This document shows positions 3,563-32,262 of a DNA stretch of 52,924 nucleotides, piece by piece. This stretch comes from an uncultured Bacteroidia bacterium. GTDB taxonomy: Bacteria; Bacteroidota; Bacteroidia; Bacteroidales; Prolixibacteraceae. The notes under the pieces are model-generated. The model saw only the letters and a list, made by a program, of their open reading frames with translations. It did not search any database and was not told the origin of the DNA. Each line of letters begins with the position of its first letter. The first letter of the stretch is position 1. The stretch covers positions 1-52,924 of the forward strand of contig CAINLJ010000270.1 in the NCBI GenBank assembly GCA_903850335.1, given 5' to 3'. A program made the translations under genes and the position numbers.

Positions 3563-4345
3563 ATGAGTAAACAAGTAATATTTTGTAATTGTGGGTCCAA
3601 ATTAATCGGATCTGAACGGTTGAAAGGTATCTCAGATCATCTTGAGATAAAAAACTGTCAGGTTATTGAAATTTCTGATTTATGTGGATGTGCTGTTGAA
3701 AAGCCGGATGAAATTCGTAAGCTATTTAATGGTTCTGATGACTTTTTGATTATTGCCTGTTATCCACGCAGTGTCAGTCTTTTGCTTGGTAAATGTGGAA
3801 TTGAGATTAAATCATTGAATTTGAATTATATCAATTTCAGAGAATTAAATAATATTCAGATCTTTAAGGAAATAGATACATTTTTGGAGAGTGAAGAAGG
3901 CAGTCGAAAACCAGATTATTTATCTTACAACAATGAATGGCCATCCTGGTTTCCAATAATTGACAACTCACGATGTAATTCGTGCGGACAGTGTTCCGAT
4001 TTTTGTCTCTTTGGAGTTTACGAGAAAATTGATAATAAGGTTGTTGTAGTAAACCCCAAAGGATGTAAGTATAATTGTCCGGCGTGTGCGAGAATATGTC
4101 CGCAGATTGCTATAATTTTTCCAAAATATGAGCATTCGGGAGCGATTGCCGGTTCGGAAACTTTTGATGAGCTGGCTGAACAAAGGCGGCAAAATAGTGA
4201 TATAGATACAATTCTTGGAACCAACATTTATAAGGCACTTGAAATGCGAAAAGCGAAGAGACAATCTATTATTCGCTCAACAGCTATGCAACAGGCAATT
4301 GTAGAAAGAGAAAAAGCCCTTGCCGAAAAAAATCCAAATCAATAA
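3563..4345 (+). CDS. HdrA N-terminal-like iron-sulfur protein with C-terminal 2[4Fe-4S] ferredoxin domain
   Basis: 260 residues, cytosolic, with no signal peptide. The N-terminal half has the layout of the N-terminal domain of heterodisulfide reductase subunit A: a CNCG start (residues 8-11), a middle CGC, then IIACYPRS and later NFREL. These correspond to the VVAACSPR and NIRE landmarks of HdrA as I remember them. The second half is a ferredoxin, with CNSCGQCSDFC followed by CKYNCPACARICP. The FAD domain of a complete HdrA is absent. It is the first gene of the long cluster and lies 11 bases before a radical SAM gene, so it may be an electron donor for that enzyme. The ferredoxin assignment is secure; the HdrA relationship is inferred from motif order. 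Confidence 0.75.
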   Translation: MSKQVIFCNCGSKLIGSERLKGISDHLEIKNCQVIEISDLCGCAVEKPDEIRKLFNGSDDFLIIACYPRSVSLLLGKCGIEIKSLNLNYINFRELNNIQIFKEIDTFLESEEGSRKPDYLSYNNEWPSWFPIIDNSRCNSCGQCSDFCLFGVYEKIDNKVVVVNPKGCKYNCPACARICPQIAIIFPKYEHSGAIAGSETFDELAEQRRQNSDIDTILGTNIYKALEMRKAKRQSIIRSTAMQQAIVEREKALAEKNPNQ

Positions 4346-4356
4346 TCTGACGCATA

Positions 4357-5535
4357 ATGTCGCTACTCAGGAATTTTCTAAAGTCGGATCTCCATTGTAT
4401 TTGGAAATTCTCATATAACCTTGGATGGAAGGGGATTATAGGATTTAATAAGTTTCAGAAAAGGAAGATGAAGGGAGAAATCTTCCCGGCATTTCAGTTT
4501 ATATCGGTTACAGACGACTGTAATCTTTCGTGTCAGGGTTGCTGGGTGACCAAGGAAGGAAAAGGCTCATCTCTTGATCTGAAAGCACTAAACAAAATCA
4601 TCACTGAAAGTAAAAGGTACGGATCCTATTTTTATGGAATACTTGGAGGAGAACCGTTGATGTACAGTGATTTAATGACTTTATTCAGGTCACATCCGGA
4701 TTGCTATTTTCAATTATTTACAAACGGAACCCTATTAAATGATAAAATAGCCAATGAACTAAAAATGTTGGCAAATGTTACTCCTTTAATTAGTCTTGAG
4801 GGAAATGAAAATGTTTCTGATATACGAAGAGGGAGCAATCGGGTTTTTGAACGGACGATAAGGGCAATTGAGACAAGTACATCTCACGGACTGATAACCG
4901 GAGTTGCTATAAGTGTTTGTAAATCAAATATTGATATGGCATTATCGGATTATTTTATCGATATGCTGCACTCTCGGGGGGTCGTTTATGTCTGGTATTA
5001 TATTTATCGTCCTACAGGTGAGAACCCGCATTATGAACTGGCACTTTCGGATGAGGAGATTCTGAGGTTGAGAAAGTTTCTTGTTGATGGCAGAGTAAAA
5101 TACCCCATCGTGATGATTGATTCATACTGGGGTGCTGATGGTGAACCGTTTTGTCCGGCTGTTGAAGGATTGAGTCATCACATAAACCCAGGTGGAAACA
5201 TTGAACCTTGCCCCGTAATTCAGTTCTCGGCCGATCATATCAATGAAGGTGAATTAAAGACGGTATATGAACAATCAGAATTTCTAAAATGCTTTAAATC
5301 TGAGGTTAACGGACTAACTAAAGGCTGCATATTGATGGAGGATCCTCAATGGCTGGCGAAATTTGCGACTGACCATCATGCAAAGAATACATCGAACCGT
5401 TCAGACCTCTATGAACATCTAAGCAGTGGAAGTAAGATTTGTAGTCATGGAAGTTGTGAAAAAATACCGGAAAAAAGCAGGATATACAGAATAGCAAAAA
5501 AAAGAGCCTTCTTTGGTTTAGGTGCTTACGGATAA
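4357..5535 (+). CDS. Radical SAM enzyme with C-terminal cysteine-rich (SPASM-like) region
   Basis: 392 residues. The radical SAM [4Fe-4S] motif CNLSCQGC uses C55, C59 and C62, and GGEP further on is the usual SAM-binding signature. A second set of cysteines in the C-terminal third (FCPA, NIEPCP, KGC and CSHGSC) suggests one or more auxiliary clusters like those of SPASM/twitch enzymes. The substrate cannot be read from the sequence. Neighbours are a ferredoxin upstream and a DUF116/polyprenyl synthase fusion 10 bases downstream, so a lipid or prenoid modification is plausible. HpnH-type hopanoid radical SAM enzymes are a precedent for such a role. A peptide-modifying role is less likely because no precursor peptide gene is visible nearby. 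Confidence 0.85.
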   Translation: MSLLRNFLKSDLHCIWKFSYNLGWKGIIGFNKFQKRKMKGEIFPAFQFISVTDDCNLSCQGCWVTKEGKGSSLDLKALNKIITESKRYGSYFYGILGGEPLMYSDLMTLFRSHPDCYFQLFTNGTLLNDKIANELKMLANVTPLISLEGNENVSDIRRGSNRVFERTIRAIETSTSHGLITGVAISVCKSNIDMALSDYFIDMLHSRGVVYVWYYIYRPTGENPHYELALSDEEILRLRKFLVDGRVKYPIVMIDSYWGADGEPFCPAVEGLSHHINPGGNIEPCPVIQFSADHINEGELKTVYEQSEFLKCFKSEVNGLTKGCILMEDPQWLAKFATDHHAKNTSNRSDLYEHLSSGSKICSHGSCEKIPEKSRIYRIAKKRAFFGLGAYG

Positions 5536-5545
5536 TTAATTAAAA

Positions 5546-7141
5546 ATGGATTCAAAGATATTTAAATCCCTGTTTACACTGGATATTCCAATTGTTAAAT
5601 CGAGTCGTGAGCAGATAAGGGCTACAATTGAGGCTCATTTTCTGAAATTTAAGGTTATGCCTCCTGTGAGCCATGATAGTTTATTCCGGGTTGCCAGCTT
5701 ACTTATCGACGAGAATAAGTGGGAAGAAAGATACCGTGCATTCATTATGGTATGTTGCGGAAATGCGATTTGGCGAACTGTAGTCGGCTCAATACCATTT
5801 AACCGACGGATATTTCTTTTGCCCCAATGTCTTAGAAATAGTGTCTATTGTAAGGCCGAACAGGATGATCTTGGTCTCTTATGCGGAGAATGTGGCCATT
5901 GCAGTATTTCAGGTCTGTTGCGTGAAGCTGAAAATCTGGGATATGTTGCACTCGTTACTGAAGGCACAACAATCACTACAAGACTCATCGAAAGTGGTAA
6001 GGTAGATGCAGTAATCGGAGTTGGATGTATGGAGGTGTTACAGAAAATGTTTGCCTCTGTGAGTAAATATTCAATTCCAGGTATTGGAATACCATTAACG
6101 TCTTGTGGATGTGTTGATACAACAGCTGATTCAGACTGGATTAAACAAGAGATTTATAATTTTCGTGAGGATCCATCGATCAGGCTTTTAAATCTGAATT
6201 ATCTTAAGAATAAATCATCTTCGATATTTGGCGAGGAACAACTTATCAGGATGCTGGGCGTTCCCAAAAGTAGAACCGAAGTTATAGCCTTTGAATCCCT
6301 TTTATCTGGTGGTCAGCGTTTAAGACCCTTTCTGACAGTTCTCGCCTATGAGGCTTTTGTACCCGAACCAGATCCTACAATTTTGAATATGCTTGCCTTG
6401 TCCGTTGAGTGTTTCCACAAAGCATCTCTTATACATGATGATATAGAAGATAATGACGAAATAAGATATGGGGTTGAGACCCTTCATACTCAGCATGGTG
6501 TACCCATAGCAATAAATGTTGGAGATTATCTGATTGGTGAGGGATACAGGTTGATATCCGAAAGTACACTCTCCTCAGCTATGATTCGCGAAGGAGTCAA
6601 AATAGTTTCACGCGGCCATCGTACACTCACAATCGGACAGGGTGCAGAATTAATTTCAATCCAGTCAAACGAAATTCTTACACTTGGTGAAATGCTGGAA
6701 TTATTTGAAAATAAGACTGCTGCTGCATTTAAAGTTTCACTTCTTTTGGGCGCTACTGTCGGAGGAGCTTCGTCCGAAATGCTTGAAGGACTTAGCAATT
6801 TCAGCAGATTGATAGGTATTGGCTATCAGATTAAAGATGATATTTCAGATTTCAAGGGGAATAAGGGAGATATCGCAATCAGGAAATTTTCCATATTACT
6901 CTCGATTTTAATGGAAAAACTTCCTCCTTCAGAAAAAGAAATAATGACAAGATGCTATAAATCAGATGATTTTGAATCATTATATAAATTGATTGATTTC
7001 TATCAAATAGAGGAAATTACCAAAGAACTCCTGGTCACCACGATTAATGATGCAAAATTATGCCTCGACAATCTTTCGAATCTTGGTCTAAAACTGGCTT
7101 TATATGAAATTTTGGGGAAGATTTTTAAGGATTATATTTAG
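5546..7141 (+). CDS. DUF116 domain fused to polyprenyl diphosphate synthase
   Basis: 531 residues. Residues about 60-200 match DUF116: MVCCGNAIWR, LPQCLRN, GLLCGECGHCSI, GVGCME and a late CGC, giving a cysteine-rich probable metal or FeS domain. Residues about 235-531 are a trans-isoprenyl diphosphate synthase. The first aspartate-rich motif is D298-D299-I-E-D302 and the second is D431-D432-I-S-D435. Small residues (A293, S294) before the first motif suggest a product of C20 or longer. Two conserved IPP diphosphate-binding positions differ: GGQRLRP has Q257 where most family members have Lys, and IRYG has Y308 where RRG is usual. It precedes a toroid prenyltransferase-like gene (38-base overlap) and a class II cyclase, so it probably supplies the polyprenyl substrate. 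The domain calls are firm; chain length and the effect of the substitutions are inference. Confidence 0.85.
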   Translation: MDSKIFKSLFTLDIPIVKSSREQIRATIEAHFLKFKVMPPVSHDSLFRVASLLIDENKWEERYRAFIMVCCGNAIWRTVVGSIPFNRRIFLLPQCLRNSVYCKAEQDDLGLLCGECGHCSISGLLREAENLGYVALVTEGTTITTRLIESGKVDAVIGVGCMEVLQKMFASVSKYSIPGIGIPLTSCGCVDTTADSDWIKQEIYNFREDPSIRLLNLNYLKNKSSSIFGEEQLIRMLGVPKSRTEVIAFESLLSGGQRLRPFLTVLAYEAFVPEPDPTILNMLALSVECFHKASLIHDDIEDNDEIRYGVETLHTQHGVPIAINVGDYLIGEGYRLISESTLSSAMIREGVKIVSRGHRTLTIGQGAELISIQSNEILTLGEMLELFENKTAAAFKVSLLLGATVGGASSEMLEGLSNFSRLIGIGYQIKDDISDFKGNKGDIAIRKFSILLSILMEKLPPSEKEIMTRCYKSDDFESLYKLIDFYQIEEITKELLVTTINDAKLCLDNLSNLGLKLALYEILGKIFKDYI

Positions 7142-7982
7142 AATTGCATCAATTAATCAGCTTAGAAAAGTAAAACCTAAACTTCTTGAGGCAGTTTTAG
7201 CTAAGTCGATTTCAATTCTTGATGATGAAATGGCTAAAGAAATTAGCAATTTCATACGAATGAGTCAAACCGTACAAGGCGGATTTGCTGATCGGGGTGG
7301 TAAACCGGATTTGTATTATTCATTGTTTGGCTACTATATTGCTGAAGCATTTTCAGTTCAAGAGGTCATGAGTCCGTTGAAAAGATATGTTTCAGAAGTT
7401 GTTATAAACAACGAATTGTCAGGAGTATATCGTTATTGCGGAGCGATTTTGTATGTTAAACTTGTCGGATTGGATTCGCACACGGATAAGCTACGTGAAG
7501 AAATTGTAAAAGAGCTTAAAAAATCGACATCCAAACAACCTGAGTATTCGGGATTTTTGGGAATTCTGGCTTTGTTTTACCTGAAGGATTTTTCAACAAT
7601 AAAATGGGTCGTAAATCAATATAGCAGAAGTTATTTAAGAAAAAATAATTTACCATGCCCGGTGGAATCTGCCATCCTGGTGATTCACGGATTAGCCGGA
7701 AAAAAAGTTGAAGAATTTCCGGATAAATTATTCAAATTTTATCGTGAGAATGGTGGTTTTGCTGCACTGGAAAAGGCTCCATCCGAAGACCTTCTCTCAA
7801 CTGGGGTGGCCTTATTCGCATTAAATTTTTTGGATGTTGATCTGAGGCTGATAAAACCAGATTGCCTTAATTTTGTTGATAGTTTGTATGATAGTGGTGG
7901 TTTTCGATCTGCCTTATCAGATTCGGTAAGTGATGTGGAATATACATTTTATGGGCTACTTGCCCTTGGATCACTGGTGTAA
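7104..7982 (+). CDS. Prenyltransferase-beta / terpene cyclase-like alpha-alpha toroid protein
   Basis: 292 residues. Three QW-like or prenyltransferase-beta-like repeats are visible: QGGFADRGGKPDLYYSLFG near residue 58, NGGFAALEKAPSEDLLSTG near 213 and SGGFRSALSDSVSDVEYTF near 263. These fit the toroid fold shared by protein prenyltransferase beta subunits and squalene cyclases. There is no DxDD motif. The position that holds a zinc-binding Cys in Rab geranylgeranyltransferase beta (PDVCYS) reads PDLYYS here, so canonical zinc chemistry is unlikely. The ATG at 7104 overlaps the upstream gene by 38 bases; the reading frame between it and the upstream stop has no alternative start, which supports it. 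It may be a non-catalytic partner of the next gene's cyclase, or an enzyme of unknown chemistry. Confidence 0.7.
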   Translation: MKFWGRFLRIIFRIASINQLRKVKPKLLEAVLAKSISILDDEMAKEISNFIRMSQTVQGGFADRGGKPDLYYSLFGYYIAEAFSVQEVMSPLKRYVSEVVINNELSGVYRYCGAILYVKLVGLDSHTDKLREEIVKELKKSTSKQPEYSGFLGILALFYLKDFSTIKWVVNQYSRSYLRKNNLPCPVESAILVIHGLAGKKVEEFPDKLFKFYRENGGFAALEKAPSEDLLSTGVALFALNFLDVDLRLIKPDCLNFVDSLYDSGGFRSALSDSVSDVEYTFYGLLALGSLV

Positions 7983-8013
7983 TTGTAAATTTGTTTAGTT
8001 TAGATTGAAACTT

Positions 8014-9849
8014 ATGAAAGGAATAAACCTTGAAGACAGGTTCACCGAATTAGTTGAAATACTTCGTTCTGAGAGGAACGAAGCCGGATTCTGGAGCGGA
8101 AAACTTTCATCAAGTTCATTGGCGACTGCTGTATCCGTTGTAGCACTCAAAATAAATAATAAAGCTGAAGATAATGCATTGGTAATAAATGGATTAAATT
8201 GGCTTTTAAATCACGTGAATTCAGACGGAGGGTATGGTGACACTCCCCAAAGTAAAAGTAACGTTAGCACTACATTACTTTGTTATGCCGCTGTCAGCTA
8301 CTGTGGCTCAGGGAATCAATCCTGCAATTTAGTTATTGATGGGATCCGGACCTATCTTTCCAAAGAAAGAATTAATCTTGAAAGCCGGGAAATAACCTCT
8401 TCAGTTTTGGCTTTTTACGGAAATGATTATACCTTTTCTGTTCCTATACTTTCTATGCTTGTAATATGTGGTGTTCTTGATTCAAAAAGTTGTGACAAGA
8501 TCCCCCAATTGCCGTTTGAATTTACATTATTACCCACTTCATGGTATAGTTTATTCAATCTGCATGTTGTTAGCTATGCCATACCTGCATTGGTAGCAGT
8601 AGGAATTTTTGTTTTCAAATCCAGGAAAAGACATAATCCATTAATGGCCTGGATAAGGAAAAAGTCAATAAATCATGCATTGCGAAAACTTGAAAATATT
8701 GTACCCGAAAGTGGTGGCTTTCTGGAGGCTATTCCTTTAACTGCCTTTGTATCGATGTGTCTTATTTCCTCGGGATATGCAAATAACGGTGTTGTTAACA
8801 AAGGCATACATTTTTTGCAAATCCAGCAACGACAGGATGGGAGTTGGCCAATCGATACGGATCTTTCAACCTGGGTAACGACACTAAGCGTTAAATCACT
8901 TGGTTCGGAGATGATTAATAAATTCTCTATAAGTGAAATATCAAGGATTATAAACCATCTGGAATCCGTTCAATCTGCGAATATACACCCTTTTAATCAG
9001 GCGCAACCCGGCGGTTGGGGTTGGACGAATTTTTCCGGATCGGTGCCTGACGTCGACGATACATGCGGAGCAATTTTGGCATTGCTCGAATTGCAAGAAT
9101 CCAAAGTTGACATAAATCCAATTATTAATGGTTGTAAATGGCTGTTATCACTGCAAAATAAAGACGGCGGTTTTCCTACTTTCTGCAAAGGTTGGGGCCG
9201 TCTTCCTTTTGACAGTAGTTGTGCAGATCTGACGGGCCATGTATTTCTTGCTTTAACAAGGTCCAGAGAGATTATAGACAATGAAATGCCTCCAGGGCTA
9301 AAGAATTCAATTAACGATTCTATTGCCCGGGCATTGGGTTACTTGTGGAAAGTCCAGGAGGATAATGGTTGTTGGATACCATTATGGTTTGGAAACCAGC
9401 ATTCAAAGGATTTCAAGAATCCTGTTTATGGTACAGCTAAAGTGGTTATCTATTTAAGAGATAGCTTATTGTGTCATTTGCTTGATGATAATATTAAAGT
9501 AAATGTTCAAAAGATGTTGTTGCGTGCACAACAGTTCTTACTGAGTCAACAAAACGATGATGGCAGTTGGGGCGGTGAGATTGGGATTGAAGGAAGTATT
9601 GAAGAAAGTGCACTGGCAATTTCTGCTCTTGCAGGGATCAATGAGAGTGCTTGCATAAGAGGATTTGACTGGTTGCAGATGGAGTATGTCAAAAACGGAT
9701 TAAGATCAAATCCAATAGGTCTTTACTTTGCAATGCTATGGTACGATGAGAAGCTTTTCCCAATTATTTATTATATTGAGGCCATCCGGAGATATCTGAA
9801 AAACGGACCCTCCTTTTGTCAGAATGAAAAACTATCAGGAATTGTGTAG
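8014..9849 (+). CDS. Class II terpene cyclase of the squalene-hopene cyclase family
   Basis: 611 residues from the ATG at 8014 (a TTG lies three codons earlier). The class II catalytic motif is D346-V-D348-D349-T, at the place expected from squalene-hopene cyclase (DxDDTA). QW-type repeats are seen as QDGSWPID, GGWGWTN, KDGGFPTFCKGWG, DNGCWIPLWFG and DDGSWGGE. The C-terminus, with IGLYFAMLWYDEKLFP, resembles that of squalene and sporulenol-type cyclases. A hydrophobic stretch near residues 180-200 may be the membrane-dipping segment of the family. Protonation-initiated cyclisation of a polyprenoid at the inner membrane face is expected. No squalene synthase (HpnCDE or ERG9 type) is present in the window, so the substrate may be a polyprenyl chain from the upstream synthase rather than squalene. 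Confidence 0.85.
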   Translation: MKGINLEDRFTELVEILRSERNEAGFWSGKLSSSSLATAVSVVALKINNKAEDNALVINGLNWLLNHVNSDGGYGDTPQSKSNVSTTLLCYAAVSYCGSGNQSCNLVIDGIRTYLSKERINLESREITSSVLAFYGNDYTFSVPILSMLVICGVLDSKSCDKIPQLPFEFTLLPTSWYSLFNLHVVSYAIPALVAVGIFVFKSRKRHNPLMAWIRKKSINHALRKLENIVPESGGFLEAIPLTAFVSMCLISSGYANNGVVNKGIHFLQIQQRQDGSWPIDTDLSTWVTTLSVKSLGSEMINKFSISEISRIINHLESVQSANIHPFNQAQPGGWGWTNFSGSVPDVDDTCGAILALLELQESKVDINPIINGCKWLLSLQNKDGGFPTFCKGWGRLPFDSSCADLTGHVFLALTRSREIIDNEMPPGLKNSINDSIARALGYLWKVQEDNGCWIPLWFGNQHSKDFKNPVYGTAKVVIYLRDSLLCHLLDDNIKVNVQKMLLRAQQFLLSQQNDDGSWGGEIGIEGSIEESALAISALAGINESACIRGFDWLQMEYVKNGLRSNPIGLYFAMLWYDEKLFPIIYYIEAIRRYLKNGPSFCQNEKLSGIV

Positions 9850-10863
9850 ATGCGCAAGAAATTAATCATAATTGGATTATTATTTCCGGTGTGGATATTA
9901 TTGTATTACTACAAGGAAGAATCAGCGAATTTTATTGTATATAATTGGTTTCGTTTACCTTATGAATCAAATGTTTCGACTACATTATGGTTTTTTATCA
10001 GTAATCTTCAAAAAATCTTTCTAATACTCGTTCTGGTTATATTTCTTACAGGGATCGTACGTTCGTATTTTTCTCCTGAAAAGACAAGGAATATTTTGGA
10101 GGGGAAACCTCTTTTTGCCGGGAATGTTCTAGCTTCACTCCTTGGGATACTTACACCCTTCTGTTCCTGTTCCGCAATACCCCTTTTTTTGGGATTTGTC
10201 GAAACTGGTATTCCTCTCGGAATAACATTTTCTTTTCTCATTGCTGCACCTATGATCAATGAAGTTGCTGTAATCATGTTATTTAGCATGTTTGGCTGGA
10301 AGACAGGGTTAGTTTATGTTTTATCAGGGCTTTTAATTTCGATCCTCTCAGGTTGGATAATAGGTAGGCTGAAACTGGAAAGATGGCTTCAGGATTGGGT
10401 AATTCAGATAAAAACAGGAATCGGACAATCGTCAGATGCGCAATTGGATTTCAGCACCCGGATCGAAATTGGCCAAAGTGCTGTCAGGGAGATAGTTATA
10501 AAAATATGGCTGTATGTTGTTGCAGGTATTGCAGTTGGGGCTATCGTTCATGGATATGTTTCCAATGATTATTTAGCAGGTCTGTTCAACAAATCAACCT
10601 GGTATTCAGTCCCGCTGGCCGTTTTAACGGGAATTCCAATTTATGCCTGTTCACCGGGGGCAGTACCCATTTTATATGCTCTTATAGAAAAAGGAGTTCC
10701 GTTAGGCACGGCACTTGCATTTATGATGTCTGTAATTGCTATTTCATTACCGGAATTAATTATCCTTAAAAAAGTATTGAAGATTCAATTTATCCTGGTT
10801 TTTGCGGGAATTTTAACGGTTGGTATTATTCTGGTAGGCTATGTAATGAATCTCGTGTTTTAA
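9850..10863 (+). CDS. UPF0718/ArsP-type permease with CSCS motif
   Basis: 337 residues with about eight to ten membrane segments. The family signature TPFCSCSAIPLFLGF (C105 and C107) and the second-half motif YACSPGAVPI are both present; this two-half arrangement is typical of the DUF318/UPF0718 permeases, which include ArsP and relatives linked to metal or organoarsenical efflux. The ATG directly follows the stop of the cyclase gene, so the two are almost certainly cotranscribed. In this context the substrate need not be a metalloid. The paired cysteines could bind a metal or take part in thiol chemistry. The family call is strong and the substrate unknown. Confidence 0.8.
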   Translation: MRKKLIIIGLLFPVWILLYYYKEESANFIVYNWFRLPYESNVSTTLWFFISNLQKIFLILVLVIFLTGIVRSYFSPEKTRNILEGKPLFAGNVLASLLGILTPFCSCSAIPLFLGFVETGIPLGITFSFLIAAPMINEVAVIMLFSMFGWKTGLVYVLSGLLISILSGWIIGRLKLERWLQDWVIQIKTGIGQSSDAQLDFSTRIEIGQSAVREIVIKIWLYVVAGIAVGAIVHGYVSNDYLAGLFNKSTWYSVPLAVLTGIPIYACSPGAVPILYALIEKGVPLGTALAFMMSVIAISLPELIILKKVLKIQFILVFAGILTVGIILVGYVMNLVF

Positions 10864-10961
10864 CCTAATCCCTTATTTAGACGTAAACTAAATTCTCCTG
10901 CATCCTTGCACATACTGCGGAATGATTCTAATTTTAGGGCAAAGTTTATACTCAAAAAATT

Positions 10962-12176: not shown

Positions 12177-12208
12177 TTTGGTTTTTATCATGCATTTAAA
12201 CTCATATT

Positions 12209-12250
12209 AAAACGGGAGAAATTGTAAACAAACCAATATTCTCCCGTTTT
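12209..12250 (+). terminator. Hairpin terminator inside the cluster
   Basis: Arms AAAACGGGAGAA (12209-12220) and TTCTCCCGTTTT (12239-12250) pair perfectly over 12 bases around an 18-base loop, and the right arm runs into T-rich sequence. It lies between two tandem propeller genes on the same strand, with only 23 bases before the next ATG, so it may attenuate rather than end transcription. It could also protect the 3' end of the upstream message. Confidence 0.75.
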
Positions 12251-14839: not shown

Positions 14840-14857
14840 TCTTTAATCCGAAGATTG

Positions 14858-17254: not shown

Positions 17255-17258
17255 AACC

Positions 17259-17465
17259 ATGAACCGAAAAGAGTTCTTTATGAAGAGTGGACGTTGGGTA
17301 ATATTGTCCGGCATCGTTGGGTTAAGTGTATTTCTTGCTCGTAACGATAAAGTTGCAATCTCGCGGAATTGTTCTGGTCCTTCTTTATGCAGGAATTGCG
17401 GTAAGTATTCTCAATGTGAACTCCCACAGGCTAATAACCAAAGAAATGGCAGAAAAGAATCCTAA
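17259..17465 (+). CDS. Small four-cysteine protein with twin-Arg-like N-terminus
   Basis: 68 residues. The N-terminus NRKEFFMKSGRW resembles a Tat signal with RK in place of RR and parallels the SRRDFLRNG of the next gene. A hydrophobic stretch (VILSGIVGLSVFLA) follows. The C-terminal part holds C38-x5-C44-x2-C47-x5-C53, a compact arrangement that could bind an FeS cluster or zinc. It starts 4 bases after the NHL gene and its end overlaps the start of the Tat ferredoxin by 20 bases. Translational coupling and the ordered cysteines argue that it is real. I do not know a named family for it. It may be a small partner of the ferredoxin. Confidence 0.65.
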   Translation: MNRKEFFMKSGRWVILSGIVGLSVFLARNDKVAISRNCSGPSLCRNCGKYSQCELPQANNQRNGRKES

Positions 17466-18018: not shown

Positions 18019-18020
18019 TA

Positions 18021-23537: not shown

Positions 23538-23582
23538 TTTTTTTTTGTAAATATAAATAGACAAATCAAGATTAATATTTTA

Positions 23583-24308: not shown

Positions 24309-24312
24309 TTAA

Positions 24313-25857
24313 ATGGTCCAAATCAAAATAAATGGTCACGAAATAATTGTTGAAGAGGGGACCTCCGTTCTTCATGCTGCAGAGACCGCCGGTTATACAG
24401 TTCCTTCCATGTGCTACAATAAGGAGCTTGGTCATTTCACCTCCTGCATGCTATGCCTTGTAAAGGATGAATCTGATGGCCGGTTATTTCCCTCCTGCTC
24501 AGTAAATTCAAAAAATGGTATGTCCATAATCACTGAGGATGAAGAAATCAGGGAAGCACGACAGACAGGATTGGAACTGCTCTTAAGTGAACATGTCGGT
24601 GATTGTCAGGGACCCTGCCAGGTAGCTTGCCCGGCCCATATGGATATCCCACAAATGAACAGGCTGATCGCAGCAGGAAAATTTGAAATGGCATTAAAAC
24701 TGGTTAAAAAAGATATTGCAATACCCTCAATATTAGGTCGAATTTGTCCGGCACCATGCGAAGGGGCTTGTCATCGCCGGACAGTGGATACTTCGGTCTC
24801 TATTTGCCTGTTAAAAAGGTTTGTCGGTGATCAGAATGATCTTCACCCTTATAAATCACATACCGCAACAGGAAAGAAAGTCGCCATAGTTGGTGCAGGT
24901 CCTGCCGGATTAGCAGCCGCATATTATTTGCAGTTAAATGGAAATCAGACAACATTATTTGATAAGGAAAGCCGGCCCGGAGGACTTCTTCGAACGAATA
25001 TCGACCCGGAAGTATTACCCTCATCTATTTTAGATAAAGAAATAAATTCAATTTTAAACACTGGGGTTATATTTAAAGGTGATACTGAAATCAATACTTT
25101 ATCTTTTCAAAATATTAAAAACCAATATGATGCTGTTGTTATCTCCACCGGTGCTTTAGTTGATGAAATGAGGAATTGGGGGTTTCTGACTAATTCGAAA
25201 GGAGTAGATACAGATAAGAATAGCTACATGACATCGATGGAAGGTGTATTTGCAATTGGAAATACAATACGGTTTTCAAGAATGGCTGTTCGTGCTGCCG
25301 GGCAAGGAAAAGAGGTTGCAATGTCAGTGGCACAATATTTATCCGGAGAGCAGCCCAAGGGAGAGCCCAAATTATTTAACTCCAACTTTGGCCGTCTCCT
25401 TGGGGACGAAATCTCTGAATATCTAAAGGAATCTGTAAATTATGACAGAATTAATCCTGCTGACAATGTCCTGGTAGGTTACGATGCTATTCAAGCTATT
25501 AGTGAAGCAAAAAGATGTCTTCATTGTGATTGCCGCGATCTGGATAGTTGTAAATTACGTGAACTGTCTGGTACGTATAAGGCAAATCAAAGGAGGTATG
25601 CCAGCAACCACAGGAAGACGATGACTAAGTATTTTGCACATTCTATTATTTATGAACCACTTAAATGTATTAAATGCGGAATATGTGTGCGAATGACTTC
25701 TAAATACAAGGAGAAATTCGGATTCTCATATATTGGACGTGGTTTCGATGTTGTTATTGGTGTGCCTTTTAATGAGTCAGTTGATACGGGTCTGGCTGAA
25801 ACAGCGCTAATAGTGGCCAATGCATGCCCTACTGGTGCGCTATCTGTAAAATCATAG
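24313..25857 (+). CDS. FeS-flavoprotein: NuoG-like ferredoxin plus GltD-like FAD domain lacking the pyridine-nucleotide domain
   Basis: 514 residues. The N-terminus is a plant-type [2Fe-2S] ferredoxin like that of NuoG/HydA (PSMCYNKELGHFTSCMLC and a later cysteine). Then comes a GltD-like FeS region (CQGPCQVACPAHMDIP, GRICPAPCEGACHR) and an FAD-binding motif, G194-A-G196-P-A-G199. In GltD-type enzymes a second GxGxxG domain binds NAD(P)H; here only about 30 residues separate ISTGA (near 280) from GVFAIGN (311-317), so that domain is missing. The C-terminus adds CLHCDC and a NuoG-like CIKCGIC with a final ACPTGAL cysteine, enough for one cluster. NADH is probably oxidised by the NuoF protein encoded upstream, with this subunit as an electron hub. 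The domain loss is seen in the sequence; the role is inference. Confidence 0.85.
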   Translation: MVQIKINGHEIIVEEGTSVLHAAETAGYTVPSMCYNKELGHFTSCMLCLVKDESDGRLFPSCSVNSKNGMSIITEDEEIREARQTGLELLLSEHVGDCQGPCQVACPAHMDIPQMNRLIAAGKFEMALKLVKKDIAIPSILGRICPAPCEGACHRRTVDTSVSICLLKRFVGDQNDLHPYKSHTATGKKVAIVGAGPAGLAAAYYLQLNGNQTTLFDKESRPGGLLRTNIDPEVLPSSILDKEINSILNTGVIFKGDTEINTLSFQNIKNQYDAVVISTGALVDEMRNWGFLTNSKGVDTDKNSYMTSMEGVFAIGNTIRFSRMAVRAAGQGKEVAMSVAQYLSGEQPKGEPKLFNSNFGRLLGDEISEYLKESVNYDRINPADNVLVGYDAIQAISEAKRCLHCDCRDLDSCKLRELSGTYKANQRRYASNHRKTMTKYFAHSIIYEPLKCIKCGICVRMTSKYKEKFGFSYIGRGFDVVIGVPFNESVDTGLAETALIVANACPTGALSVKS

Positions 25858-25859
25858 TA

Positions 25860-26969
25860 ATGAAGATTTTAAAATTATTAATAATTCTTTTAGCATTTCA
25901 TAGTGCAGGGAAGGGGCAATCTTCTTCAAGTTGGAGTATGTATCGCGGAAATCAAAACCTCCTTGGGGTTACGCATGTAAATTTTCCGGATAAACCCCGG
26001 CTTCTTTGGAGTTTTCAGGTTGGTGATAATATCAAATCTGCTGCGGTAATTCAAAATAAAAAAATTGTTGTAGGTTCAACAGACGGTTATATTTATTGTC
26101 TTGACTTTAAGGGGAAATTAATTTGGAAATTCAAATCCGAAAATTCCATAGAAGCACCGGCACTAATTTTGGATGAAAAGGTCATCGTAGGTAATCTGGA
26201 TGGAACCCTGTTGGCACTAAAACTTTCTGATGGGTCACTAATTTGGAAATATAAGACTGATAACCAAATTATTGGTTCAGCCAATTATTTTAAATCCGGA
26301 GCAAAAACATGGTTGATTGTAGGAAGCTACGACTATAATTTATATTGTATTGACGCTCAAAACGGAGAAATGAAGTGGAAATACGAATCTGACAATTTTA
26401 TAAATGGATCACCTGCTTGCTTCAATGGAAAAGCTATATTTGGAGGATGTGATGGGTTCCTTCATATTCTCGATATCAAAACAGGTAAATCAATATCAAA
26501 ATTAAATATTGGAACCTATGTGGCAGGTTCGTGTCCGGTGAATGCCCTGAATGCTTATGTGGGTGATTACGATGGAAAATTTTCAAGGGTTGATATTCAA
26601 TCGGGCAGGATAGTTTGGACCTGGGAAAATAGGGAATTAAAGCAACCCTTTATTGCATCCGCTTCTTTATCTGATAATAAGATAGTTACGGGTAATCGTG
26701 ATAAATTTGTGTATTGTTTTGAAGAGAATTCAGGTAAGCTGCTATGGAGCTATAACAGCGGTAACAGGATAGAGGCATCACCTATTATAATCAATGATAA
26801 AGTTTTGACGGCAAATATGCGTGGAGACTTGTCATTACTTAATTTAGCCGATGGCACTCCAATTTGGAAATATGAAGTTGGTAATTCCATTCTTCATAAT
26901 CCTGCTGTGATAGAGAATTTAATGGTCGTCTGTTCCTTAAGCGGGACAATTTTTTGCTTTGGAAAATAA
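25860..26969 (+). CDS. Secreted PQQ-like beta-propeller protein
   Basis: 369 residues from the ATG at 25860, two bases after the previous stop; the longer frame overlaps the upstream gene and would hide the signal peptide MKILKLLIILLAFHSAGKGQS. The propeller is very regular: repeated VGSTDGYIYCLDFKGKLIWKF-type blades, with GKLIWKF, GSLIWKYKT, GEMKWKYES, GRIVWTWEN, GKLLWSYNS and GTPIWKYEV. It is a BamB-like minimal propeller in which each blade ends with a Trp. It is the seventh propeller of the cluster, counting the NHL protein, and precedes the glycosyltransferase. Confidence 0.85.
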   Translation: MKILKLLIILLAFHSAGKGQSSSSWSMYRGNQNLLGVTHVNFPDKPRLLWSFQVGDNIKSAAVIQNKKIVVGSTDGYIYCLDFKGKLIWKFKSENSIEAPALILDEKVIVGNLDGTLLALKLSDGSLIWKYKTDNQIIGSANYFKSGAKTWLIVGSYDYNLYCIDAQNGEMKWKYESDNFINGSPACFNGKAIFGGCDGFLHILDIKTGKSISKLNIGTYVAGSCPVNALNAYVGDYDGKFSRVDIQSGRIVWTWENRELKQPFIASASLSDNKIVTGNRDKFVYCFEENSGKLLWSYNSGNRIEASPIIINDKVLTANMRGDLSLLNLADGTPIWKYEVGNSILHNPAVIENLMVVCSLSGTIFCFGK

Positions 26970-26995
26970 TTTAAACAAATTAATTGCATCAAATC

Positions 26996-28276
26996 ATGAA
27001 CATTATTCAAATTATTCCGGGTTCTGGTGGCAGTTTTTATTGTGGTAACTGTCTTCGGGACAGTAAGTTTATCGTTGCACTTCGTGAACAGGGTCATGAG
27101 GTAATTAAAATCCCAATGTATCTCCCAATTTTTGCAGATGAGCATGACATAGACAAAATTCCAGTCTTTTATGGTGCAGTCAGTATATATTTGAAACAGC
27201 TTTATCCAATTTTCCGAAAGGCTCCTGCCTGGATTGACAGGTTACTCAATTCCAGGCCAATCTTAAAATTAGCTGCCTCTATGGCTGGCTCGACAAATGC
27301 AAAAGGTCTTGAAGAATTAACAGTTTCGATGTTACTTGGTGAGAATGGAAAGCAAAATGAAGAGCTTGAGCGTTTGATTGATTGGGTAGAAGACCATTAC
27401 AAGCCAGATATTATTCACATATCCAACGCATTACTTCTTGGTTTGGCTCACCGGATTAAAGAAAGACTTAAAGTCCCTGTTGTCTGCTCATTGCAGGATG
27501 AGGATGTTTGGGTCGATGCAATGGGATCCGATTTTAGAGATCAAATTTGGAAATTAATGACAGAAAAGGCCAAATACATCGATCTTTTTATTGGTGTAAG
27601 TCATTATTTTTCAGAGGTAATGAAACAAAGAATGTTAATACCTGATCAAAAGGTTCGAAGTCTTTACCTTGGAGTCGATCCTGACGATTATGATTTTATA
27701 CCCCCTAATGAAAAATCTCGTAATATTGGTTTTATCTCCCGAATGTGCCATGAAAATGGATTGGATATCCTTGTCGGGGCTTTTATCCTTTTGAAGAAAA
27801 AACAGGGGTTTGATGATGTAAAACTTAAGCTTACAGGCGGGTCAACAGGATCTGATATAAAGTACCTTAAAAAAATAAAAAAGAGTATCAGAAAGGAAGA
27901 TCTTGAAAGTCAGGTTGATTTTATCGATGAATTTGAAGATAACGATCGTCTCGGATTTTTTAGTCAGGTTACTGTAATTTCTGTTCCAGTCCGCAATGGG
28001 GAAGCATTTGGGATGTATCTGCTGGAGTCAATGGCATCAGGTATTCCTGTATTACAACCTGCAATAGGAGCGTTTCCAGAGATTATTAATTTGGCAGGTG
28101 GCGGTCTAATTTATGAGCCAAATACTCCGGACGCACTTTGCGAAGCCCTTGCAACGATATTGTGCGATCCGGTTTTATTAAATTCTCTTGGACTAACAGC
28201 GCGAAAAGGGGTCGAACAAGAATTCAATATTCATGAACATGCAAAGGAGATGATTGAAGTTTATGCTGAGCTTTGA
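26996..28276 (+). CDS. Glycosyltransferase family 4 (GT-B fold)
   Basis: 426 residues from the ATG at 26996; a TTG four codons earlier is less likely. The N-terminus has IIPGSGGSFYCGNCLRDSK, whose GGxFYCGNCLRD block marks a subgroup of GT4-like enzymes. The C-terminal Rossmann half has NIGFISRMCHENGLDILV, RNGEAFGMYLLESMASG and the E-x7-E-type GEAFGMYLLE donor-binding region. It is cytosolic or membrane-associated, with no membrane segments. The acceptor is unknown; in this setting a polycyclic prenoid or a secreted protein could be glycosylated. It follows the last propeller by 26 bases and precedes the ABC transporter by 45. Confidence 0.85.
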   Translation: MNIIQIIPGSGGSFYCGNCLRDSKFIVALREQGHEVIKIPMYLPIFADEHDIDKIPVFYGAVSIYLKQLYPIFRKAPAWIDRLLNSRPILKLAASMAGSTNAKGLEELTVSMLLGENGKQNEELERLIDWVEDHYKPDIIHISNALLLGLAHRIKERLKVPVVCSLQDEDVWVDAMGSDFRDQIWKLMTEKAKYIDLFIGVSHYFSEVMKQRMLIPDQKVRSLYLGVDPDDYDFIPPNEKSRNIGFISRMCHENGLDILVGAFILLKKKQGFDDVKLKLTGGSTGSDIKYLKKIKKSIRKEDLESQVDFIDEFEDNDRLGFFSQVTVISVPVRNGEAFGMYLLESMASGIPVLQPAIGAFPEIINLAGGGLIYEPNTPDALCEALATILCDPVLLNSLGLTARKGVEQEFNIHEHAKEMIEVYAEL

Positions 28277-28321
28277 GATATAGCAGAAATTCACCTAATC
28301 CTTTTTAATATTCAAAATCTG

Positions 28322-28996
28322 ATGATTCTTAAACTAAAAAATGTCTCCAAAGGTTATGGTGACCCGCAGAAAAGCAATTATAGAAAAGTCCTTGATGAGA
28401 TAAATCTGGAAGTATATGAAAACCAGAAAATTGCCATTGCCGGTCCTAGCGGATCAGGAAAGACAACCTTGTTGAACCTCATTGGCACTCTTGATAAGGC
28501 TGATTCGGGTGAGATTATCTTTAAAGGCACTAATATAATTGAATATTCAGACGAACAACTGGCACATTTTAGAAACAGACAGCTTGGATTTGTATTTCAA
28601 TTTCACCACCTTTTGCCCCAGTGCACTCTTTGGGAAAATGTTCTCCTGCCTGTTTTGCCTTTTAAAAAAATTGCAGGTAAAACGGAAAAGGAGTGGGCGG
28701 AATATTTATTACGTAAAGTTGGCATTTGGGAACAGAGGAATCAAAAACCATCTGAACTTTCGGGCGGTGAATGTCAGCGTACTGCAGTTGTAAGAGCCCT
28801 GATCAATAAACCACAGCTGATACTTGCAGATGAACCAACTGGTGCTCTCGATGAGAAAAATGCATTGAATCTGACAGAGTTGTTAAACCATATAAGTAGC
28901 GAAGAGGGAATATCACTTGTTGTTGTTACTCATTCAGCAGAACTCGCTTCTCAAATGGACAAAATCTATCAATTGAAAGACGGGCAACTACGATGA
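28322..28996 (+). CDS. ABC transporter ATP-binding protein, LolD/MacB type
   Basis: 224 residues with every ABC ATPase motif: Walker A GPSGSGKTT, Q-loop FVFQFHH, signature LSGGECQR, Walker B LILADEPTGALD and the switch His in VVVTHS. Length and sequence suit the LolD/MacB/FtsE group, which works with FtsX-type permeases that move substrates mechanically rather than by a channel. Its stop overlaps the ATG of the permease gene by 4 bases (ATGA), so the two are translationally coupled. Confidence 0.95.
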   Translation: MILKLKNVSKGYGDPQKSNYRKVLDEINLEVYENQKIAIAGPSGSGKTTLLNLIGTLDKADSGEIIFKGTNIIEYSDEQLAHFRNRQLGFVFQFHHLLPQCTLWENVLLPVLPFKKIAGKTEKEWAEYLLRKVGIWEQRNQKPSELSGGECQRTAVVRALINKPQLILADEPTGALDEKNALNLTELLNHISSEEGISLVVVTHSAELASQMDKIYQLKDGQLR

Positions 28997-31900
28997 CTTA
29001 TTTCTCATTGATAATAAATAACTTCAGGTACTATTTAAAGGCTAATATTCTCGTAATATCAGGTATTGCAATCAGTGCTGCAGTCCTAACCGGTGCACTG
29101 ATTATTGGTGATTCGGTATTTTACAGTCTTGAACAATCAACCTTTTACAGGCTAGGCAATATTTCCCATACTGTTTCGTCTGCAGACCGGTATTTTCGTG
29201 AAGACCTGGCAGAGGAAGTTGCAGTAGAGGGCAGATTCATAGTCGCTCCAGCCCTTATCCTGGATGGTATGGCGGTTTCAGAGGGGGGCAATGATCGTGT
29301 AAATAAGGTTCAGGTTGTAGGTGTAAATGATAATTTTGAGAAAATTGCGAATTCCAAAATTTATAGCAATCTTTCAGGTAATGAGGTTGTATTAAGTGAT
29401 AATCTGGCATATAGACTGCATCTTAAAAAAGGTGACAGGTTTATTGTCAGGATAAAAAAAGCAAGCTTAGCTCCACTTAATGCTCCCTTTATTTCTGATG
29501 CCGAAACAAATGCCTCTTTTCAGGCAACTGTTAAGGAAATTTCAGGCCAGAAAACCCTCGGTTTTTTTAATCTTAAGAATGTCCAGACGGCCCCTTATAA
29601 CCTTTTCCTTTCGTTGTCGAAACTAAACAGCCTCATGAAATTTAAGGAGAAGGCAAATTGGCTACTAATTTCAGCACCATCTTTTAACAGTCAGCAAATT
29701 ACTGAAACACTTAACAGGTGCTTTAAAACGGAGGATGCTGGTTTAACAGTAAAGGATATCCCGGTTACGAACGAAACGGAGATCAGTTCCGATCGGATTT
29801 TTATTGAGAATCAGGTCATAAAAGCCTTTGAGCCATTGAAGAATTCACGTTGTGTACTAACTTATTTTGCGAATAGTCTCGAGTTTAATGGGAAGAAAAC
29901 ACCTTATTCGTTTATTTCAACAATAGACGATAAGACACTGGTTAGTAATGATATAATCATTAACAACTGGGTTGCAGATGATCTGAATGTAAAACAAGGC
30001 GACTCAATACTGGTTAAATATTATGTGATTGGTCCCTTGCGTCAATTGGTTGAAAAAGGTATGAAATTTTCCATAAAAAAAATAGTATCAATTGAAGGAA
30101 AATTTGGGGATAGAGATTTAATGCCTTTATTACCAGGGCTTTCTAATGCTGGTCATTGCCGTGATTGGGAAGCGGGAGTACCTATTAAACTTGAATATAT
30201 CCGTCCTAAAGATGAGGCTTACTGGAATAAGTATAAAGGAACTCCAAAAGCATTCATTTCCACCTCAAAAGCACAGCAAATTTGGTCAAACAGGTTTGGA
30301 AATGTCACAGCAATCAGGATAGATAAGCATTCTTTTAATAATAGTGGCTATTTATCCTTGTTTCGAACCTCGGTAAAACCTAAGAATCTGGGAATAATTG
30401 TCACCTCAGTCAAAGAAAATGGATTGAAAGCTGCTCATAACGGAGTTGATTTTAGTCAGTTATTCCTTGGATTAAGTTTTTTCCTCTTAGTTGCGACTCT
30501 ATTTCTTAATGCCTTACTAATGCTTTTAAATCTTGAAAGCCGTAAATCAGAATTGGGTTCTCTTTTGTCTATCGGCTTTACAAAGAAGCAGATGAGAATA
30601 CTTTTTCTGACCGAGGTGTTTGGAATTTCGGTTTTAGGAGGCCTGGCCGGTCTTTTCATTTCATTAATATACACTAAATTAATCTTTTGGGCACTTAATA
30701 CATTATGGTGGGATGCTATTCACTCTTCAATATTAATGATGGATCTGAAGGCATCGACCCTAGGACTTGGGTTGATATTGAGTATCGTAATTTCACTTAC
30801 AACTGTCTTTGCAGCAATTCAGGGAAGTTTTAAAAAGCAAGCAGCTGAATTACAGCGACAACGAGACAATTCTCAAAAGCCTTTAATGAGAAATATAAAA
30901 TTAGGAGCAATCTTCCTTACAATTATTCCGGCATTAGGATTAGTAATCTTTCAGCTGATTTATTCACCTGTTTTAAACTCATCTAAATTCTTTCTTTCAG
31001 GAAGCTTACTTTTAACAGGTTTATTGTTAATTGCAGATATTGTTCTTCGCTATAACCCTGAGAAGGTTGATTATAGGTTATCTTTTCAAAAGTTTAACCA
31101 AAGAAACAGATCGCAAAATACAGGGAGATCTTCTACCATATTGATTTTATTTTCCCTGGGAACTTTTATTGTTATATCAACCGGTGCAAACAGCGGAAAT
31201 CCATTATCTGAAGGTAATGCGAATAGTAGCGGCACTGGCGGTTATAAGTACTTCGCAGAAACTTCTGTACCTGTTTTATTTAGTTTGAATGATAGGGATC
31301 AAAGGAAAAAGGAAGGGATTCAAACATCTTTTAAAGCTTTAGAAATTAGTAGGATAGATGGTGATGATGCCAGTTGTCTGAATTTAAACCAGGTGTCAAA
31401 TCCATCCATTTTGGGTGTCGATCCGGAAATATTCAAAAATAGGTTCACCTTTGAAACAAAATATCAAGGAATCGGTGACAAACAAATTTGGGAGGCTTTA
31501 AATGAATCATATCCGGATAATGTTGTGCCAGCAATTGCCGATCAGACTGTTATTCAGTGGGGGATGGGTAAGAGTATTGGAGATACCCTGATTTACACCA
31601 ACGAATCTGGAGAATTACTAAAATTAAAACTTATTGCGGGATTGGCACCTTCTGTCTTTCAAGGTAATGTTTTAATTTCGAATAGAAATTTCCTGAAAAA
31701 TTATCCTGCAAGAAGCGGATCTCATCTTTTTTTGATTGATGTACCTAATGAGAATGCTGAAAAGACAAAGGAGGAGCTAATGAATGTTTTTAGGGATTAT
31801 GGATGGGAAATTACAACCTGTATTCAAAGAATAACAGAGTTTAACTCGGTTGAGAATACTTATTTATCCATATTCCTGGCTCTTGGTACTTTGGGTTTAA

Positions 31901-32262
31901 TCCTTGGAACTGCCGGGCTTTCTATTGTTCTTGCCAGATCGCTTTTGGAAAGGAAGAATGAAATTATGCTTATGCTTTCGTTAGGTTTCACCCGAAACCA
32001 ACTTGTCGGATTATTGGTCAATGAATATGCTTTTTTACTGATCTTAGGTGTTGCGACAGGGTTTCTGGCAGCGATGGTTGCTATACTTCCCAATTTACTT
32101 ACCGCTGGAGGTGAGGTTTCATTTTTAACTGTTTTATTGATAGTTACATTAATCATTATAAATGGAGTATTCTGGATCTTCGTGCTTTCGCGCAGGGGCA
32201 CAGAACAAGGTAAGATAAGCTTTAATTCAGATTATACAAATAATTCAAAAGCCATCCTTTAG
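28993..32262 (+). CDS. Giant FtsX-type ABC transporter permease
   Basis: 1089 residues. One membrane segment at the N-terminus (ILVISGIAISAAVLTGALIIG) precedes a periplasmic domain of several hundred residues, and a cluster of FtsX-like segments follows near residues 495-600 (FLGLSFFLLVATLFLNALL, SVLGGLAGLFISLIY). Two more segments follow near 635-685. A second periplasmic domain then leads to a final FtsX set (residues about 955-1075). The double architecture resembles LolC/LolE and the long FtsX permeases I recall from Planctomycetes, which open with a closely similar VLTGALLVGDS block. The pair could release a lipid or lipoprotein from the inner membrane. Its 3' end overlaps the convergent RND gene by 18 bases. 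Confidence 0.85.
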   Translation: MTYFSLIINNFRYYLKANILVISGIAISAAVLTGALIIGDSVFYSLEQSTFYRLGNISHTVSSADRYFREDLAEEVAVEGRFIVAPALILDGMAVSEGGNDRVNKVQVVGVNDNFEKIANSKIYSNLSGNEVVLSDNLAYRLHLKKGDRFIVRIKKASLAPLNAPFISDAETNASFQATVKEISGQKTLGFFNLKNVQTAPYNLFLSLSKLNSLMKFKEKANWLLISAPSFNSQQITETLNRCFKTEDAGLTVKDIPVTNETEISSDRIFIENQVIKAFEPLKNSRCVLTYFANSLEFNGKKTPYSFISTIDDKTLVSNDIIINNWVADDLNVKQGDSILVKYYVIGPLRQLVEKGMKFSIKKIVSIEGKFGDRDLMPLLPGLSNAGHCRDWEAGVPIKLEYIRPKDEAYWNKYKGTPKAFISTSKAQQIWSNRFGNVTAIRIDKHSFNNSGYLSLFRTSVKPKNLGIIVTSVKENGLKAAHNGVDFSQLFLGLSFFLLVATLFLNALLMLLNLESRKSELGSLLSIGFTKKQMRILFLTEVFGISVLGGLAGLFISLIYTKLIFWALNTLWWDAIHSSILMMDLKASTLGLGLILSIVISLTTVFAAIQGSFKKQAAELQRQRDNSQKPLMRNIKLGAIFLTIIPALGLVIFQLIYSPVLNSSKFFLSGSLLLTGLLLIADIVLRYNPEKVDYRLSFQKFNQRNRSQNTGRSSTILILFSLGTFIVISTGANSGNPLSEGNANSSGTGGYKYFAETSVPVLFSLNDRDQRKKEGIQTSFKALEISRIDGDDASCLNLNQVSNPSILGVDPEIFKNRFTFETKYQGIGDKQIWEALNESYPDNVVPAIADQTVIQWGMGKSIGDTLIYTNESGELLKLKLIAGLAPSVFQGNVLISNRNFLKNYPARSGSHLFLIDVPNENAEKTKEELMNVFRDYGWEITTCIQRITEFNSVENTYLSIFLALGTLGLILGTAGLSIVLARSLLERKNEIMLMLSLGFTRNQLVGLLVNEYAFLLILGVATGFLAAMVAILPNLLTAGGEVSFLTVLLIVTLIIINGVFWIFVLSRRGTEQGKISFNSDYTNNSKAIL

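Follow-up and report, generated by a model that had tools for sequence, protein, structure and literature searches.

A DNA stretch of 52,924 nucleotides from an uncultured bacterium of the Prolixibacteraceae (Bacteroidota), here termed the window, was analyzed (contig CAINLJ010000270.1, or C270; host genome of 5.5 Mb, 95.6% complete). The window has 21 genes in an unbroken run on the + strand at positions 3563–32262, with spacings between neighbors of −38 to +98 bases; the consecutive, close-packed genes described in an earlier note on this DNA are all present. The run consists of two separable conserved modules, termed A and B, and is not one fixed operon. The two modules very probably constitute one functional system and are inherited together. 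The explanation that best covers the observations as a whole is that this system makes a cyclized polyprenoid and delivers NADH electrons to periplasmic beta-propeller proteins, perhaps in a metalloid context; as a complete account it is put forward tentatively, at a little under an even chance. It should be noted that the labels fdA, toro, PQ1–PQ6, TatFS etc. were coined in the present analysis.

Conservation of the modules in related genomes

The gene order in the run is not due to chance, as each module recurs elsewhere with its genes in the same order, at protein identities of 27%–85%. The region around the cyclase gene of module A was fetched from 21 relatives. The order fdA, radical SAM, DUF116-synthase, toroid protein, cyclase is found in 20 of these, and the exception is G468, where the contig starts after fdA. 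The synthase of G395 reads as two pieces, and G413 has a small frame ahead of the cyclase. B genes come after A in six of the 21 (G395, G404, G406, G425, G451 and G506; the G406 stretch stops at the Tat ferredoxin). The junction between A and B is formed by a G3E GTPase gene and an ArsP permease gene in G395 and G404, and by ArsP in G406. Among the fetched stretches, ArsP is found between the modules only in the genus of the window (G395, G404, G406 and G408), and G395, G404 and G408 carry a G3E GTPase beside it.

The order of module B (propellers, NHL-repeat protein, Tat ferredoxin, NapH-like protein, PQ5, NuoEF, FAD protein, PQ6, GT4, LolD, FtsX) is kept in 11 genomes whose NapH region was fetched separately, some with extra small frames. 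As to gaps in this order, G520 is without PQ1–PQ4 there, G407 and G521 are cut by the stretch or the contig, and the Tat ferredoxin of G412 is not called, a frame on the opposite strand being in its place. G408 (locus L115) has fdA and the DUF116-synthase remaining beside B, with no cyclase match in its genome.

Presence of the modules was scored in 149 relatives by the cyclase (E-value 1e-15) and the NapH-like protein (E-value 1e-40). The cyclase is present in 51 relatives and the NapH-like gene in 74; both are found in 50, the cyclase only in 1, the NapH-like gene only in 24 and neither in 74 (Fisher odds 154, uncorrected for ancestry). B is therefore present in 50 of 51 carriers of A vs. 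24 of 98 non-carriers, and the lone cyclase-only relative, G480, has a completeness of 66%. Among relatives, A nearly always accompanies B, and B can do without A. The cyclase and NapH-like genes are within ~9 kb of each other in 10 of the 50 relatives that have both.

Conservation in other phyla and joint transfer

A scan of a genome collection with the cyclase alignment gave at least 575 relatives, of which the best 80 were kept. These comprise 48 from Bacteroidota, 30 from Planctomycetota/Verrucomicrobiota/Lentisphaerota/Kiritimatiellota (29 placed by title and L175 by its likeness to L163), one from Acidobacteria and one unsorted. Among the best 80, 47 loci are 20 kb or longer. At least three of the four other A genes are present in 38 of these and at least three of six core B genes in 28; 25 loci combine the two.

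A is followed by B in records of Parabacteroides, Prevotella, Alistipes, Carboxylicivirga and Oligosphaera. B genes are ahead of A in Marinifilum, Labilibaculum and Ancylomarina, and in the last two A comes after FtsX. In a Lentisphaerae GWF2 record (L164), A sits inside B, between a PQ5 piece and PQ6; NuoEF and the FAD protein were not seen in the stretches read from L164. A Verrucomicrobia metagenome-assembled genome (MAG), L159, has a G3E gene inside A and PQ4–PQ5 on the opposite strand, and in Pontiella A and B are rearranged. Several gene orders thus place A next to B in Bacteroidota, Lentisphaerae and Verrucomicrobia. A linkage that survives such changes of order appears to be the strongest sign of a shared function. 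The check across genomes that the earlier note had proposed therefore turned out in its favor, i.e. the combination is widely conserved and the genes belong together over several phyla. This joint conservation is far stronger than the reading of a single sequence could reveal.

A whole-genome search found the NapH-like gene in 21 of 29 genomes taken from the cross-phylum scan. Six Verrucomicrobia genomes (L180, L184, L187, L191, L193 and L196) have the cyclase but none of the four further A genes over the stretch read, and no NapH-like gene genome-wide; these six cyclases appear to be a second use of the cyclase family. Pairwise distances of the cyclase and the NapH-like protein give a Mantel r of 0.912 (47 genomes), as compared with 0.925 (70 genomes) for the cyclase and the radical SAM protein, both of module A.

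One relative, G425, points to transfer of the modules. Its cyclase, NapH-like protein and PQ4 are nearest to those of Carboxylicivirga linearis (L130), with 74%, 82% and 77% identity, respectively, and its radical SAM protein is equally near L123 and L130 (75%). The family members compared with G425 are 39%–49% alike (the genus mates G442 and G453 are comparable for A genes only). Because the nearest cyclase and NapH-like sequences are from Carboxylicivirga and the family members are this dissimilar, the simple reading is that A and B were transferred as a unit into the G425 lineage.

Isolates in which A adjoins B genes are Parabacteroides sp. ZJ-118 and Parabacteroides sp. PH5-46, Carboxylicivirga linearis and Oligosphaera ethanolica. 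In Marinifilum, A adjoins the part of B in view, and in Draconibacterium aestuarii A is present with B elsewhere in the genome.

Module A

The first gene, fdA (3563–4345), has a Pfam Fer4_10 match at 131–180 and a cysteine-rich N-terminal half, with conserved cysteines in 70 orthologs; we take the N-terminal half to resemble the N-terminal region of HdrA. The second (4357–5535) encodes a radical SAM protein with a CNLxCxGCW motif and C-terminal cysteines. It matches the AhbC, NirJ and HpnH models far below their cut-offs (44.3 bits for HpnH, cut-off 225.05), so that this module A protein is not identified as HpnH; the rest of the genome was not searched for HpnH.

The third gene (5546–7141) is a fusion of DUF116 with a trans-polyprenyl diphosphate synthase. 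Residues D298, D299 and D302 and residues D431 and D432, i.e. both Asp-rich motifs (DDxxD and a second DD motif), are invariant in 36 sequences, and seven cysteines in the DUF116 part are invariant in the same 36 rows. The predicted model has a pLDDT of 91, and a fold search matches it with geranylgeranyl diphosphate (GGPP) and long-chain polyprenyl synthases; the rows listed were all synthases, with no separate match for the DUF116 part. The fused form is present in 1 of 395 genomes sampled over the phylum, the window's own, and the other 22 matches span the synthase part only. A search of viral contigs for relatives of the fusion found none.

The fourth gene, toro (7104–7982), encodes a small alpha-alpha toroid protein resembling half a cyclase, with a sub-threshold Prenyltrans match and a conserved position. 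The fifth (8005–9849) encodes a class II cyclase of the squalene-hopene-cyclase (SHC) type, with DVDDT at residues 349–353 (nt positions 9049–9063). In the motif PD.DDT (D349 to T353) the P, D, D, D and T are each present in at least 97% of 99 orthologs. The earlier note's proposal of a capacity to make and cyclize a polyprenoid agrees with the conservation of both Asp-rich motifs and of the DxDD motif.

The closest solved relative of the cyclase is squalene-hopene cyclase, with weak similarity. The protein scores 84 bits against the curated SHC model (cut-off 431.1) and 114.3 bits against a general squalene cyclase model (cut-off 322.7). A comparison with the hopanoid, tetrahymanol and oxidosqualene pathways shows likeness in the DxDD class II cyclase and in a radical SAM protein that weakly matches HpnH, NirJ and AhbC. 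Unlike those pathways, the locus has a dedicated DUF116-polyprenyl synthase, a second toroid protein and a linked redox operon. Membership in the hopanoid pathway was rejected because the SHC and HpnH scores fall far below the cut-offs and some carriers have no match to a squalene synthase. Mercury methylation was also considered and rejected; the weak match to the ferredoxin HgcB covers the ferredoxin domain only.

Squalene/phytoene synthase (SQS/PSY, PF00494) matches were absent from 3 of 16 tested A carriers (G413, G446 and G482), one of which is a 4-contig genome rated 100% complete. Given this absence, the cyclase of these three genomes probably uses a substrate other than squalene, the simplest candidate being the product of the neighboring synthase. 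Squalene-independent cyclization of a polyprenyl chain is considered likely for module A: the module would build the chain and cyclize it from the non-diphosphate end with no need for squalene, and its Fe-S and radical proteins may then modify the cyclized chain.

Module B

Domain scans show seven propellers in the run, six PQQ_2/BamB-like and one NHL. PQ1 (10962–12176) is secreted and is followed by PQ2 (12274–13530), PQ3 (13595–14839) and PQ4 (14855–16285); PQ4 is membrane-anchored, with an invariant set of His, Cys and Arg residues, and in a fold search it is matched best by tetrathionate hydrolase and BamB, i.e. generic propellers. The NHL-repeat protein (16295–17254) has a conserved GCCNP motif. 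PQ5 (19344–21161) has hydrophobic N-terminal segments, and PQ6 is at 25824–26969. Identity with PQQ-dependent dehydrogenases was rejected by score: a scan for PQQ alcohol dehydrogenase that took in five propellers (PQ3 was left out) gave 38–68 bits for four of them, vs. a required 480.05, and no such match for PQ4.

Next to the NHL gene are a multi-[4Fe-4S] ferredoxin with a twin-arginine N-terminus (SRRDF; 17326–18018) and a membrane Fe-S protein of the NapH/NosR type (18015–19322). The latter scores 45.9 bits against the curated NapH/MauN family (cut-off 213.05). Its 15 invariant cysteines (11 sequences) include a CxC and a C-terminal 4Fe-4S-type site, which are presumably additional to those of NapH. 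The pair resembles NapGH, NosR-NosH and MauMN in having a Tat-type ferredoxin and a NapH-like protein, and is unlike them in that the locus has an NADH flavoprotein and none of the 21 genes encodes NapA, NosZ or a Mau enzyme.

The NADH flavoprotein, NuoEF (21198–23537), is a NuoE-2Fe2S-NuoF-2[4Fe-4S] fusion. Its best solved match is 9bov_B (E-value = 4.9e-209 over 296–778), and it is also close to 8oh5_B (we take 8oh5 to be the Stn structure) and to NfnB and HydB chains. The 2Fe-2S and GltD-like FAD protein (24313–25857) aligns mainly with approximately the first 290 residues of 9bov_A, 9n5u_A (NfnA) and 8oh5_C. A NuoF-type NADH subunit with extra ferredoxin domains, a feature of the bifurcating Stn/Nfn/HydABC flavoproteins, is thus present, and both locus proteins are closest to chains of 9bov, 9n5u and 8oh5. 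The Stn complex of Sporomusa is the subject of PMC10482914 and PMC7483475. Unlike the Stn/Nfn/HydABC enzymes, the locus has its flavoproteins linked to NapH-like and Tat ferredoxin genes, and Pfam scans of the 21 genes show no hydrogenase, formate dehydrogenase or NADP-binding transhydrogenase partner that would complete such an enzyme. The same scans gave no match to known terminal reductase families.

The remaining genes of module B encode a GT4 glycosyltransferase (26984–28276), which is not universal, a LolD-like ABC ATPase (28322–28996) and an FtsX/MacB-like permease of 1089 aa (28993–32262).

The redox genes form a plausible chain from NADH to the periplasm, in line with the electron route that the earlier note had outlined. 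An outward NADH electron chain is rather probable on this gene content. Electrons would pass from NADH to NuoEF and the FAD protein, then to the NapH-like protein, the Tat ferredoxin and the periplasmic propellers (PQ4, NHL). The lipid or an adduct of it may be reduced or processed at PQ4 and the NHL protein, and LolD/FtsX may release it.

Flanking genes and a possible metalloid role

Recurrent neighbors of the modules were found by an all-against-all comparison of flanking genes (some loci were fetched because of the GTPase). Besides genes that close relatives have in a common order, there are three such families. One is a LytTR response regulator with its LytS-like kinase (13 loci match the two strongly); the others are a G3E (CobW-type) GTPase and an MIP channel. 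In G395 and G404 the G3E gene has the cyclase on one side and ArsP on the other; in G408 it precedes ArsP, in G407 it follows the cyclase, in G479 it lies immediately upstream of A, and in L159, as mentioned, it is inside A. G3E and MIP genes together are beside A or B in L126, L138, L139, L147, L148, L163, L175, L236 and L237. The G3E GTPase is present in 21 of 149 relatives, all 21 with B and 18 with A, as compared with 2 genomes in a phylum-wide sample of 395.

Of the 331 distinct genes located up to 7 kb from G3E, 16 encode ArsR, ArsC or ArsP, as compared with 4 of the 1985 in the rest of the fetched stretches; when the two seed loci of the models are left out, the counts are 13 of 314 and 4 of 1979. 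ArsR or ArsC is beside A, B or an MIP-G3E pair in L126, L139, L236, L237 and G446, and in G446 the ArsR gene starts ~70 bases after the cyclase. The ArsC proteins of L236 and L237 resemble the thioredoxin-type arsenate reductase, below its cut-off, and those of L236, L237 and L139 have by eye an apparent signal or lipoprotein peptide. Vicinal cysteines are found near the C-terminus in 9 of 10 ArsR-type proteins examined, the exception being G482.

In the window run the sole ars-type gene is the ArsP_1 (PF03773) permease of the ArsP/SaoE type (9850–10863), located between A and B, with 240.5 bits vs. a cut-off of 32.3. In the host genome, a 6.3 kb contig has an MIP-G3E pair and a different contig has a second G3E gene, with no ars gene in view beside either.

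Near ArsR in L265, L267 and the G446 flank (L051) are a gene for a BioB-like radical SAM protein and a small gene with a cysteine motif (which we take to be GCAxxG-like); this group lies beside MIP-G3E or directly after module A.

Ars operons with an AqpS-type aquaglyceroporin are known. The neighboring loci are like these in having ArsR, a thioredoxin-family ArsC and an MIP channel, and the window in having ArsP; they differ by the added G3E GTPase and, in some genomes, by adjoining A/B genes. Because G3E GTPase, MIP channel, ArsR, ArsC and ArsP neighbors recur, the job of the system may be metalloid handling, most likely of arsenic. Arsenic would be the foremost candidate for the substance handled, and a role with arsenic or a related metalloid is a real possibility, short of probable.

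A different explanation of the same neighbors is that the G3E/MIP/ars genes form an ordinary metalloid-resistance operon that shares regulation or insertion sites with A/B, the latter being unrelated to arsenic. Ars operons are mobile and common, and the MIP-G3E pairs of L265–L270, four of the six having ArsR, are without an A/B gene over the stretch read. This does not account well for a G3E family that is rare over the phylum and, among relatives, always found with B, nor for the distance of no more than 4 kb between it and an A or B gene in 13 genomes and in three further ones (G400, G405 and G409). The explanation is possible but doubtful.

Proposed system and alternative explanations

We infer the function and chemistry of A and B from their gene makeup. 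The earlier model is kept in outline, a lipid being made and cyclized and NADH electrons being sent outward, and is amended by the division into two modules, the Stn/Nfn-like entry point and the possible metalloid context. The single unidirectional locus of the earlier note stands in so far as the genes are conserved together; it is replaced by two modules, of which B also occurs without A.

Several observations weigh against the proposed system. Of the 74 B carriers, 24 have no A cyclase, and the lipid is therefore not essential to B. A is apart from B, within the stretch read, in 15 of the 21 fetched relatives, and the counts are uncorrected for shared ancestry. In the cross-phylum set, 8 of 29 cyclase-bearing genomes (L148, L188 and the six Verrucomicrobia genomes named above) have no NapH-like match; L148, a Prevotellaceae MAG, and L188, an Acidobacteria MAG, carry the complete A cassette. 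Two SQS/PSY homologs are present in the window genome, so that squalene remains a possible substrate there. In nine B loci of other groups (L236, L237, L238, L239, L241, L246, L249, L251 and L253), GT4 is recognized in L237, L241, L249 and L251 and not in the other five, and the FAD protein is not recognized in L238, L239 and L241 and is only ~320 aa in L236, L237 and L251. For these reasons neither glycosylation nor the FAD step is general, and the glycosylation proposed earlier, for which GT4 is present in the window, is weakened. As to arsenic, ars genes are missing from the stretch read in most A/B loci, and 53 of the 74 genomes with B gave no G3E match, so that arsenic may be incidental.

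Some of these observations would be expected if A were a membrane-lipid pathway of a hopanoid-like kind and B an anaerobic respiratory chain of the periplasm with no relation to A, the two being neighbors through shared conditions of use. The occurrence of B without A, the separation of A from B, the two MAGs with A and no NapH-like gene, and the SHC-like cyclase all fit this view. It is nevertheless unlikely: the linkage outlasts changes of order over several phyla, all but one of the 51 A carriers among the relatives have B, both modules of G425 point to one foreign lineage, and the SHC and HpnH scores are far under the cut-offs.

Alternatively, A could make a new isoprenoid redox carrier or anchor for the NapH-like/Tat ferredoxin chain of B, which would dispose of NADH electrons on an extracellular acceptor. 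The dependence of A on B in distribution among relatives and the full NADH-to-periplasm set in B are in its favor, as are the many gut, rumen and sediment sources in the record titles, which suggest anaerobes. Against it, A has no visible aromatic or quinone-forming step, B occurs without A, and the 21 proteins have no terminal reductase match in the Pfam scans; this explanation is judged rather improbable.

Least probable is that A and B make and process a terpenoid arsenical for membrane-anchored storage, use or expulsion of arsenic, in which the DUF116 cysteines would hold arsenite to be joined to a polyprenyl or radical-SAM-derived carbon, the class II cyclase would cyclize the prenyl tail, and the NADH-fed NapH/Tat-ferredoxin chain would reduce or free the arsenic periplasmically via the vicinal-cysteine NHL protein and PQ4.

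Other features of the window

The gene classes given in the earlier note agree with the domain calls, except that the gene at 23583–24308, between NuoEF and the FAD gene, is a REP-associated tyrosine (IS200-like) transposase, and that the permease is assigned to the ArsP/SaoE family. The transposase is taken as an insertion, outside the A/B system. It carries a PTEPIIPTEP-type repeat, and a relative occupies the same place in G404.

On the − strand at 32245–37449, genes for an RND efflux pump, an HlyD-type adaptor and an outer-membrane factor converge on the locus. The RND pump and FtsX genes have 18 bases in common, and G404 and G408 likewise have a relative of the pump at this place. Just upstream of the locus (71–3469, + strand) is a gene for an 1132-aa protein without any Pfam match; among the 21 fetched relatives, a relative of this protein is found upstream in G406 only. 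A further cluster on the − strand (38481–41797) encodes a PSCyt1/cbb3-type cytochrome c protein, a DUF5777 barrel and a tRNA_anti-like protein.

Significance

Title- and abstract-level literature searches, whose coverage excluded most subscription papers and all bioRxiv preprints, found no description of the A and B system. A system of about 20 genes is kept across Bacteroidota and phyla of the PVC group, cultured gut and sediment bacteria included, and the named isolates that have both modules make it approachable. If the proposed system is correct, it would link a squalene-independent route to cyclic terpenoid lipids with a new path for outward electron flow, and it would make testable what DUF116, NHL proteins with the GCCNP motif and the propeller arrays of these phyla do. 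If the arsenic link is correct as well, lipid chemistry would be tied to metalloid biology in gut and rumen bacteria.

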